A stretch of DNA of 64,000 bases from Asanoa ishikariensis (GTDB taxonomy: Bacteria; Actinomycetota; Actinomycetes; Mycobacteriales; Micromonosporaceae). A program made the translations under genes and the position numbers. The stretch spans positions 1,984,001 to 2,048,000 of the forward strand of contig NZ_FNQB01000002.1 of the NCBI RefSeq assembly GCF_900107455.1. The letters are read 5' to 3'. Positions 13,185 through 32,078 of the stretch are shown here, one piece after another. Numbering within the stretch: position 1 is the stretch's first letter; every line of letters begins with the position of its first letter. Below the pieces are notes generated by a model, which did not search any database, was not told where the DNA came from, and saw nothing but the letters and a program-made list of their open reading frames with translations.

Positions 13185-14126
13185 ATGGGCAACCAGCGGT
13201 CCATCACCGTCAACGGTGACCTGGGAAGTGGCAAGAGCACCGTGTCGGTCGGGTTGGCGGAGCGGCTGCACCTGCGCCGGATCAGCGTCGGAGACCTCTA
13301 CCGCGAGATGGCCCGCGAGCGCGGGATGACCGCCCTCCAGCTCAACCTGCACGCCGAGCTCGACGACGTGATCGACGGCACGGTCGACCAGATGCAGCGG
13401 GAGATCGCCGAGTCGGGCCAGCGGGTCATCATGGACAGCCGCCTGGCCTGGTTCTTCTTCACCAACGGCTTCAAGGTGCACCTGATCACCGACCCGACCG
13501 TGGCGGCCCGCCGGGTGCTCGGCCGACCGGCCAACGAGGTGGAGAACTACGCCACTCTCGAAGAGGCCAAGGACCAGCTCCGCAGCCGCAGCGAGAGTGA
13601 GCGCCAGCGGTTCCTCACCCGTTACCACGCCGACAAGCACGCGCTGCGTAACTACGACCTGGTCCTGGACACCACCCGGGCCCGGCCCGACGAGGTGGTC
13701 GACCTGGCGGTGGCCGCGATCGAGGGCCGGATCGGCGCCGAGACCACGCCGCTGCTCCTGCTCGACCCCGCGCGCATCTACCCGACGGGTGACATCACCG
13801 CGCTGCGCGGGATGGACGACATCGAGGCGGCGGCACTGTCCGGACCGGACGCGCTCGAGCCGATCTCGATCGGTTACGCCGACTCGCGTTTCTTCGTCGT
13901 CGACGGCCACCGCCGGCTCAGCGCGGCGCTGCGGGCCGGGTTCCGGCTCGTGCCCGGCACTCTGCTGGCGCAGGACAACGACCCGGTGGTCGGCGGGCTG
14001 TCGGCCCGAGAGTTCTTCGCGTCGACGGTGACCATGAGCAAGGTGTACGACTGGCAGGAAGCGCACGGCACCGAGCTCGAGATGCCGGCACACGCACTGG
14101 GCGATCCGGCGCCGGTCCACTCCTGA
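13185..14126 (+). CDS. Cytidylate kinase-like P-loop kinase fused to a ParB/sulfiredoxin-like domain
   Basis: 313 residues. Residues ~1-190 resemble CMP-kinase-type P-loop kinases: SITVNGDLGSGKSTVSVGLA (Walker A), then GDLYREMA, VIMDSRLAWFF and a LID-like basic segment RSRSESERQRFLTRY. Residues ~200-290 resemble the ParB/sulfiredoxin fold: LLLDPARIYPTGD, then FFVVDGHRRLSAALRAG. ParB-fold enzymes bind CTP or ATP, so the pairing with a nucleotide kinase is suggestive. ATG start at 13185. The 151-nt gap upstream contains an A/T-rich stretch (GTGTTAAAATCTTTGG) that could be a promoter. Function unknown; domain calls rest on motifs only. Confidence 0.8.
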   Translation: MGNQRSITVNGDLGSGKSTVSVGLAERLHLRRISVGDLYREMARERGMTALQLNLHAELDDVIDGTVDQMQREIAESGQRVIMDSRLAWFFFTNGFKVHLITDPTVAARRVLGRPANEVENYATLEEAKDQLRSRSESERQRFLTRYHADKHALRNYDLVLDTTRARPDEVVDLAVAAIEGRIGAETTPLLLLDPARIYPTGDITALRGMDDIEAAALSGPDALEPISIGYADSRFFVVDGHRRLSAALRAGFRLVPGTLLAQDNDPVVGGLSAREFFASTVTMSKVYDWQEAHGTELEMPAHALGDPAPVHS

Positions 14127-30920: not shown

Positions 30921-31238
30921 GTGCCGCTCCCGTCACTGAGCCCCGAACAGCGCGCGGCAGCGCTGGAAAAGGCAGCGGAGATCCGCAAAGCCCGTGCTGA
31001 ACTGAAAGAGCAGCTCAAGCAGGGCAAGACCACCCTCGCCGCGGTGCTCGACCGGGCCGAAGGCGACGACGTCGTCGGCAAGCTCAAGGTTTCGGCCGTG
31101 CTGCAGGCGATGCCGGGCATCGGCAAGATCCGGGCGACCCAGATCATGGAGAAGCTCAAGATCGCTGACAGCCGCCGGCTGCGCGGTCTGGGCGACCAGC
31201 AGCGCAAGGCGCTCCTTGGAGAGTTCGCCGGCAGCTGA
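30921..31238 (+). CDS. mihF: Actinobacterial integration host factor (mIHF)
   Basis: 105 residues. Long N-terminal helix (LSPEQRAAALEKAAEIRKARAELKEQLKQG) followed by the helix-two-turns-helix DNA-binding segment AMPGIGKIRATQIMEKLKI. Nucleoid-associated protein that bends DNA, essential in mycobacteria and affecting development in Streptomyces. GTG start after TGAGGAGAACTG. Its position between pyrF and gmk is the usual one. Confidence 0.95.
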   Translation: MPLPSLSPEQRAAALEKAAEIRKARAELKEQLKQGKTTLAAVLDRAEGDDVVGKLKVSAVLQAMPGIGKIRATQIMEKLKIADSRRLRGLGDQQRKALLGEFAGS

Positions 31239-31263: not shown

Positions 31264-31791
31264 GTGACCACGCATGACGAGGCGCGCCCGGCGGCTCGGC
31301 TCACGGTCCTGACCGGTCCTTCGGAAGCCGGTCGGGCAGCCGTGATCCGGCTCGTCCGGGCGCGCTCGCCATGGGTGCGGATGCCCGTCCTGGTCACCAC
31401 TCGCCGGCGGCGCGACCACGAGGTCGACGGCGTGCACTACACGTTCGTCGACGAGGCCGCGTTCGACCGCATGGTCGACGAGCACGGCCTGCTCGAGTCC
31501 GCGGCGATCCGGCACCACCGCTACGGCACCCCCCGCCGCCCGGTGGAGGACTGGCTCGCGGCCGGTGAGCCCGTCCTGCTCTCCATCGACCCGCGCGGCG
31601 CCGAGCTCGTGAGCCTGGCATTTCCAGACGCTCGGACGGTGCTCCTGCTGGCACCCACCGATCAGGTGACGGCCGGCGACGGCGTCGCCGGAGCGATCAT
31701 CAACCACGCCGCCGGGCGCGCTGCCGATGAGCTGGTAGGATTGCTCGGTTCGTCATTCCTGACCCCGGCACGACCGCCGCGCGGCGGTTGA
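31264..31791 (+). CDS. gmk: Guanylate kinase-like protein, apparently degenerate
   Basis: 175 residues at the canonical gmk position. It aligns by eye with guanylate kinase: RLTVLTGPS at the start, [43 protein letters not shown]. However the P-loop reads [10 protein letters not shown] where GPSGVGKST/GT is expected, so the ATP-binding Lys is absent. The segment [16 protein letters not shown] lacks the usual WAE. The LID region with its arginines (about 35 residues) is missing and replaced by a short [11 protein letters not shown]. No frameshift explains this. Probably not an active kinase; the essential activity would need another gene elsewhere. GTG start. Confidence 0.82.
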
Positions 31792-31811
31792 GAACTTTGA
31801 GGTTTGTTTTC

Positions 31812-32078
31812 GTGGGATCCATCGCCACCAACCCTGAAGGCATCACCAACCCGCCGATCGACGAGCTGCTCGAGAAGACCACGTCGAAGTACGCGCTGGT
31901 CATCTTCGCGGCCAAGCGCGCCCGCCAGGTCAATGCCTACTACAGCCAGCTCGGCGAGGGCCTTCTCGAATACGTCGGCCCGCTGGTCGAGACCACGCCG
32001 CAGGAGAAGCCACTCTCCATCGCGATGCGTGAGATCAACGCCGGCCTGCTCACGGCCGAGCCGACCGACAACCCCTGA
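31812..32078 (+). CDS. rpoZ: DNA-directed RNA polymerase omega subunit
   Basis: 88 residues. Contains the omega core [32 protein letters not shown]; promotes assembly of RNA polymerase by binding the beta-prime C-terminus. GTG at 31812 is chosen because the conserved N-terminus begins there; a TGAGG site lies 9 nt upstream. Four nt separate it from coaBC. Confidence 0.96.

Follow-up and report, generated by a model that had tools for sequence, protein, structure and literature searches.

Decay of guanylate kinase in Micromonosporaceae travels with a candidate replacement kinase

Guanylate kinase (Gmk) is one of the points at which GTP and ppGpp are controlled. Its fold also occurs without kinase activity, in the guanylate-kinase-like domains of MAGUK proteins, and PDB entry 4qrh represents a Gmk regulated by (p)ppGpp. 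In E. coli, Gmk is described as essential (PMC9239236). Here we analyse a stretch of 64,000 nucleotides from Asanoa ishikariensis (the window), in which a degenerate gmk gene lies between mihF and rpoZ, in the order pyrF-mihF-X-rpoZ-coaBC, where X is the degenerate gene. Downstream of coaBC follow metK and priA, both named from ORF reading. The features of this locus are as follows.

30921–31238, + strand: mihF (actinobacterial IHF), the upstream neighbour (NF041260, 141 bits)
31264–31791, + strand: pseudo-Gmk (degenerate guanylate kinase), 175 aa, GTG start (PF00625, TIGR03263)
31315–31344, + strand: degenerate P-loop of 10 residues, with arginine for lysine and, at residue 4, glutamate for glycine
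31657–31692, + strand: linker of 12 residues replacing the LID, hand-counted on the translation
31788–32078, + strand: rpoZ (RNA polymerase omega), ORF as called, overlapping the end of pseudo-Gmk (TIGR00690, 78 bits)

The pseudo-Gmk passes the gathering cut-off of PF00625 (67.3 versus 25.2 bits) and misses that of TIGR03263, the Gmk equivalog (105.8 versus 160.45 bits); its alignment to the latter model stops before the LID, at model position 122 of 180. A preliminary description of this DNA had reported loss of the P-loop lysine, replacement of the WAE motif and substitution of a short linker for the LID, and the translation bears out all three. The P-loop reads GPSEAGRAA, failing GxxGxGK[ST]; WAE is replaced within the 16 residues of the LLEW segment; and a linker of about 12 residues (132–143) stands where the LID should be, with the LID catalytic arginines absent from the window gene. 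An alignment of orthologues at the locus, which that description had proposed, revealed the same motif loss in all six Asanoa genomes (g1). The length of 175 aa and the sequence GPSEAGRAA are common to the six, and the other five proteins are 86–93% identical to that of the window. Because the same features recur in six genomes, sequencing error is excluded, and a base-calling error that hides intact motifs, which had been considered at the outset, is ruled out. An AlphaFold model of the protein (pLDDT 75, pTM 0.69) keeps the Gmk fold, with 1znw as the best PDB match (E = 1.2e-15). Judged by its motifs, the window gene looks like that of a pseudokinase, presumably inactive in catalysis.

The preliminary description had gone further, proposing that the true kinase is encoded elsewhere. 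Its pseudokinase part stands on the motifs, and with it the need for another source of GMP phosphorylation; an intact Gmk elsewhere is what did not hold, as none emerged from the window genome (G000; 9.09 Mb, 99.96% complete), where pseudo-Gmk was the sole PF00625 match over cut-off and the next match scored 17.8 bits. Across 61 genomes, PF00625 gave a match in 60. Eleven of these (G000–G005, G008, G015, G024, G027 and G036) had a single short match of 47.6–88.2 bits, and the best match in each of the other 49 scored 136–168 bits. We then searched seven of the 11 degenerate genomes, five of them single-contig, with TIGR03263 at E ≤ 10. There was no second Gmk among the matches listed; the extras among them scored 27.7 bits in G000 and at most 17.2 bits otherwise, mostly covering the P-loop only. 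A second, diverged Gmk, none being found with either model, was thus rejected as an explanation. The weak match in G000 (L002, 1489–2043; G000:C4, ∼1568180) is a Gmk-like ORF of 184 aa whose P-loop, GSSGVGRS, has arginine for lysine (PF00625, 17.8 bits; TIGR03263, 27.7 bits), and the six other genomes searched hold no equally strong counterpart. Another weak second PF00625 match, of 30 bits, was seen in a genome with intact Gmk (L054; G026:C84:3080–3568).

A P-loop family search (AAA_33) of the window genome, of G027 and of G013, which has an intact Gmk, brought up a kinase, K, common to both degenerate genomes. The G027 orthologue lies beside pyrF. In Asanoa, K is encoded in the same window, 18 kb from pseudo-Gmk.

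13185–14126, + strand: kinase K, candidate replacement GMP kinase, 313 aa, co-occurring with Gmk decay or loss in 133 of 133 genomes
13212–13241, + strand: intact P-loop of K, NGDLGSGKST, in which N10–K17 and T19 are invariant in 32 of 32 aligned K proteins
13740–14123, + strand: C-terminal half of K, weakly ParB-like (ParBc_2/ParB_N, phrog_6218)

The N-terminal half of K matches AAA_18 (62 bits) and Cytidylate_kin2 (58.6 bits). K narrowly misses the cut-off of TIGR02173, the equivalog for archaeal-type (d)CMP kinase (99.0 versus 102.1 bits), and a homologue from Parabacteroides exceeds it (107.9 bits). An AF2 model (pLDDT 83.5) predicts a fold of the nucleotide/shikimate-kinase type for residues 2–184, and the fold matches comprise uncharacterised or putative kinases (Z = 15.5 and 15.0), shikimate kinase (13.5) and CMP kinase (12.5). 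By sequence, solved structures matched K at E = 0.011 and weaker only. The tail bears a weak resemblance to ParBc_2/ParB_N, below the Pfam cut-offs (11.5–13.7 bits, E = 0.07–0.31), and to phrog_6218, a 'ParB-like partition protein' (E = 0.0015); no ParB fold appeared for it among the structure alignments, which mainly cover residues 2–184. In the window, K adjoins ORFs that we read as WYL regulator-like and DinB-like.

To relate K to the state of Gmk, we surveyed 300 Micromonosporaceae genomes, using PF00625 for Gmk and alignment at E ≤ 1e-6 for K. Gmk was called degenerate where the best PF00625 E value lay above 1e-35 or there was no match. Two apparent counterexamples were reclassed as intact after inspection: G084 (low Gmk score, no K) has a full-length gmk in two overlapping frames, and in G090 (no Gmk match, no K) the gene is cut by a contig end. 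Gmk was degenerate or missing in 133 of the 300 genomes, and every one of these 133 carries K, compared with 24 of the remaining 167 (Fisher P = 9e-61, a value that ignores shared ancestry). A LID-less Gmk was found in Micromonospora, Salinispora, Plantactinospora and Asanoa, and no gene is left in Dactylosporangium. Degenerate sequences were read for the 11 genomes above, for G064, G111, G315 and G321, at six of seven junctions in Dactylosporangium-type genomes (g66) and at the named loci; the named set comprises the best 80 of 129 places, with gmk on the same piece in 61 of the 80.

The smaller panel gave a similar picture. Among its 61 genomes, K scored 383–687 bits in 11 of 11 degenerate genomes; outside these there was a 251-bit match in G023, which has an intact Gmk, a broken remnant of 37 residues in G031 and a match of 20.8 bits in G044, and the remaining 47 genomes gave none. 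Of the 24 survey genomes in which K and an intact Gmk occur together, 18 were read, and all keep the P-loop GPSGVGKD[SA] and a LID. That K sits alongside an intact Gmk in 24 genomes means that K by itself is not enough to bring about Gmk loss. One of the 24, G031, has an intact Gmk and only a remnant of K: L128 (G031:C19:8254–8364) is a broken copy of 34–37 residues around the P-loop.

K itself differs between these groups of genomes. When the kinase halves of 32 K proteins are placed in a tree, a clade of 295–332 aa (support 0.987) unites K from all lineages with degenerate Gmk with that from G082 and G101, both with intact Gmk; proteins outside the clade are 230–295 aa long and come from genomes with intact Gmk. 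K measured 230–303 aa in the 17 intact-Gmk genomes read for length (L268, L270–L284, L127), with the tail reduced in most, and 305–332 aa where Gmk is degenerate or absent.

The association recurs within genera. In two of them (g23 and g12), the only sampled carrier of K is the genome with a decayed Gmk. In g23, G027 combines K with a degenerate Gmk, and G081 and G100 have no K and a Gmk over the equivalog cut-off. Of 22 genomes sampled in g12, G111 alone carries K, 12 kb from gmk, and its Gmk score, 4.1e-32, is the only low one (the remaining 21 genomes are at 1.9e-45 or better). Its P-loop, GPSGAAKSS, has lost one glycine and its LID is about full length but scrambled, and we regard G111 as an earlier stage of decay. 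At the far end are the Dactylosporangium-type genomes, in which PF00625 and TIGR03263 gave no match in any of the seven and K is present in all seven. No gmk was recognised at the six readable mihF-rpoZ junctions, where 176–544 bp separate the aligned ends; the seventh stops at a contig edge. Micromonospora, Salinispora, Plantactinospora and Asanoa form a further case. Within the Micromonospora-type genus g4, G315 and G321 are the two of 106 genomes without a PF00625 match; the pseudo-gmk there is frame-broken or mostly deleted (L265, L263), with mihF and rpoZ in place.

On a 74-genome tree of four genes, Fitch parsimony gave six changes for Gmk decay and 12 for K. Because the backbone of this species tree is weakly supported, the number of independent losses is uncertain: there are six by Fitch, of which perhaps about four are well separated. 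Degenerate copies group together in a tree of gmk genes (support 0.976), a grouping that could reflect long-branch attraction or shared ancestry.

We also compared the genomic positions of K. It lies between priA and def in Micromonospora solifontis, Salinispora mooreana, Plantactinospora mayteni and G064; between aroK and aroB, behind a WYL-type regulator, in Asanoa; between efp and aroB, on the opposite strand, in G111; and between pyrD and pyrF in G027. No such marker (priA, def, aro, efp or pyr) was found within 9 kb of K in Dactylosporangium fulvum, and megabases of a single contig separate K from mihF in G091, G130 and G138. In relatives without K, priA is beside def in G013 and G006 and 1.8 kb from it in G035, the regulator is beside aroB in G013, the aroB-efp gap is 0.7 kb in G016 and the pyrD-pyrF gap is 1.4 kb in G081. 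Given four different sites in the aro-pyr-gmk-priA region and the unlinked position in Dactylosporangium, K was probably acquired several times in the Micromonosporaceae. The genomes are large, and K and gmk still lie within ∼20 kb of each other in four of the five lineages; block transfer by recombination is one possibility.

As to a source, K had no match among 50,697 phage records, and a phage origin was rejected. Across 394 genomes of the class (E ≤ 1e-10, five candidates scored per genome shown) there were three matches, all in Micromonosporaceae. Plasmids yielded seven records of K-like proteins, each below 60% identity. Those from Rhodococcus plasmids are 39% identical over most of K; two (L319, L320) stand, in identical order, beside a protein with a dsRBD fold, a universal stress protein and one with a Clp N-terminal domain. 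A Parabacteroides distasonis plasmid (NZ_CP143950) encodes a homologue 37% identical over most of K, in a row with genes for a radical SAM protein, a dehydrogenase and hypoxanthine phosphoribosyltransferase (hpt) (L318, 7998–11622). The row looks like a purine-nucleotide-modifying cassette. Its radical SAM protein scores 65 bits against a viperin model and 148 bits against another radical SAM family.

Taken together, these data indicate that Gmk loss is real and repeated and make K a strong candidate for its replacement. We consider it likely that K supplies GMP kinase activity and thereby freed Gmk to decay, in a non-orthologous displacement of an essential enzyme. Members of the Micromonosporaceae would have gained K, apparently several times; K would then have taken over the phosphorylation of GMP, and perhaps of dGMP, making Gmk dispensable. 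The order we infer is K first and Gmk loss second, after which the LID would have been lost and the P-loop would have decayed, until in Dactylosporangium the gene was gone. Against a GMP role we count that the nearest named family of K is (d)CMP kinase. Native Cmk passed its cut-off in each of the 11 degenerate genomes and in a further 16 of 16, 14 of which have a degenerate Gmk or none. Since native Cmk is kept in the Gmk-degenerate and Gmk-less genomes tested, CMP needs no replacement kinase, and we rejected K as a substitute for Cmk, which was present in every such genome. Among the 61 genomes, a Cmk match was missing in two, G010 and G041 (69% and 86% complete), both without a match to K.

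Why, then, is the relic still there in most lineages? One explanation, compatible with replacement by K, is that K catalyses and the relic is maintained as a guanine-nucleotide sensor (of GMP, GDP or ppGpp) that regulates at the mihF-rpoZ locus. We aligned 73 degenerate and 59 intact Gmk sequences. At five LID arginine positions, the degenerate sequences have a gap or a residue other than arginine, except that G024 and G064 have a single stray arginine apiece, and the intact ones have arginine in 45 to 59. In the P-loop lysine column, 58 of the degenerate sequences have arginine and seven have lysine. We then turned to the columns that we equate with yeast Arg38, Arg41, Glu69 and Asp98; most guanine-contact positions persist. 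Here the equivalents of Arg38 and Asp98 are kept in all 73 degenerate sequences, that of Glu69 in 72 and that of Arg41 in 63, in keeping with a binding site retained as the catalytic lysine and LID were mostly lost. An open frame in the sequences read and a predicted Gmk-like fold also fit a sensor. However, the retained residues may be structural, and arginine replaces the phosphate-binding tyrosines 50 and 78 in 57 and 54 of 61 named sequences, respectively; the six Asanoa sequences retain both.

Selection on the relic was assessed as dN/dS (medians, NG86, unsaturated pairs only). Values were <1 in all pairs used, a point in favour of a sensor. In Asanoa the median for pseudo-Gmk was 0.25, compared to 0.094 for mihF, 0.155 for coaBC, 0.155 for K and 0.177 for pyrF. 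In the named Micromonospora-type set it rose to 0.49, compared to 0.052 for mihF, 0.193 for pyrF and 0.296 for K. Intact Gmk gave 0.105 (10 g29 genomes) and 0.160 (four g12 genomes). The pseudo-Gmk values exceed those of intact Gmk and of the neighbours, and hence the relic is under weak constraint. With selection relaxed (0.49 versus 0.105 and 0.160) and the gene sometimes lost (broken in G315 and G321, absent in Dactylosporangium), a sensor role is weakly supported, and we think it unlikely, if worth keeping in mind. The fuller proposal, in which K founds a new bacterial GMP kinase family and the relic of Asanoa and Micromonospora is a guanine-nucleotide-binding regulator, is somewhat less likely still. 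It draws on the kept pocket acids and on the exchange of phosphate tyrosines for arginines in the Micromonospora-type set; beside rpoZ, such a regulator would perhaps sense a guanine nucleotide with more phosphates, or it might act on K itself.

A second explanation is that some other kinase makes GDP (a broadened Adk or Tmk, or a polyphosphate-dependent enzyme) and that K travels with Gmk loss for a reason of its own, for example defence based on nucleotides or the chemistry of nucleoside antibiotics. The N-terminal half of K does match the PADLOC 'viperin-kinase fusion' model (pVip-kinase, 80 bits), and the Parabacteroides homologue has a radical SAM gene next to it and hpt nearby. These plasmid and viperin-model leads hint at kinases that may act on unusual nucleotides. 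Yet a contrast of 133/133 versus 24/167 is hard to obtain by hitchhiking, given the differences within genera and the differing sites of K, and a second enzyme would need an identical distribution. We therefore hold this explanation to be improbable.

It is far less probable that the degenerate protein still phosphorylates GMP, alone or with a partner that supplies the LID and the lysine. The frame is open at a conserved locus and the P-loop lysine persists in 7 of 73 degenerate sequences, including those of G015, G036 and G064. Nonetheless, such proteins have lost the LID and mostly the lysine too, and some K-carrying genomes no longer have the gene. Finally, an artefact of assembly or base calling, or an intact gmk that the assembly misses, of which the split gene of G084 and the truncated one of G090 are reminders, can be dismissed in view of the shared motif loss in Asanoa and of the single-contig genomes G002, G008, G015, G027 and G036, which likewise have no second Gmk.

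If K does replace Gmk, an enzyme treated as indispensable in bacteria has apparently been dispensed with by many antibiotic producers, among them Micromonospora, Salinispora, Dactylosporangium and relatives. The substitution of an essential enzyme, repeated several times independently, is thereby open to direct test. One practical consequence is that, in these genera, genes that match PF00625 may carry wrong names. There may also be a bearing on archaeal GDP synthesis, since K belongs to the archaeal-type kinase group; four archaea of the control panel had no match to Gmk models at E ≤ 0.001. A possible driver of Gmk loss would be escape from nucleoside antibiotics that Gmk activates. In E. 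coli, mutations that confer resistance to 3'-amino-3'-deoxyguanosine have been mapped to gsk and gmk (PMC9239236). In the open-licence literature, searched also for guanylate kinase in Micromonospora and Salinispora, there was no account of this Gmk replacement among the papers listed.

With respect to known systems, the relic shares with bacterial Gmk (M. tuberculosis Rv1389, PDB 1znw) its locus, the N-terminal two thirds, the predicted fold and the guanine-contact acids, whereas relics mostly lack the P-loop lysine, have no LID and score below the equivalog cut-off. It differs from the MAGUK domains in being bacterial and a single domain, with the LID removed. With the 4qrh enzyme it has in common the guanine nucleotide site of the same fold, but not the catalytic elements. 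K, in its N-terminal half, shares the P-loop and overall fold of archaeal-type (d)CMP kinases (TIGR02173) and Cytidylate_kin2 (PF13189), and is set apart from them by its extra tail, by the native Cmk alongside and by the accompanying loss of Gmk. As for the viperin-associated kinases, the PADLOC model was built for a viperin fusion, and K instead carries a tail that is weakly ParB-like.
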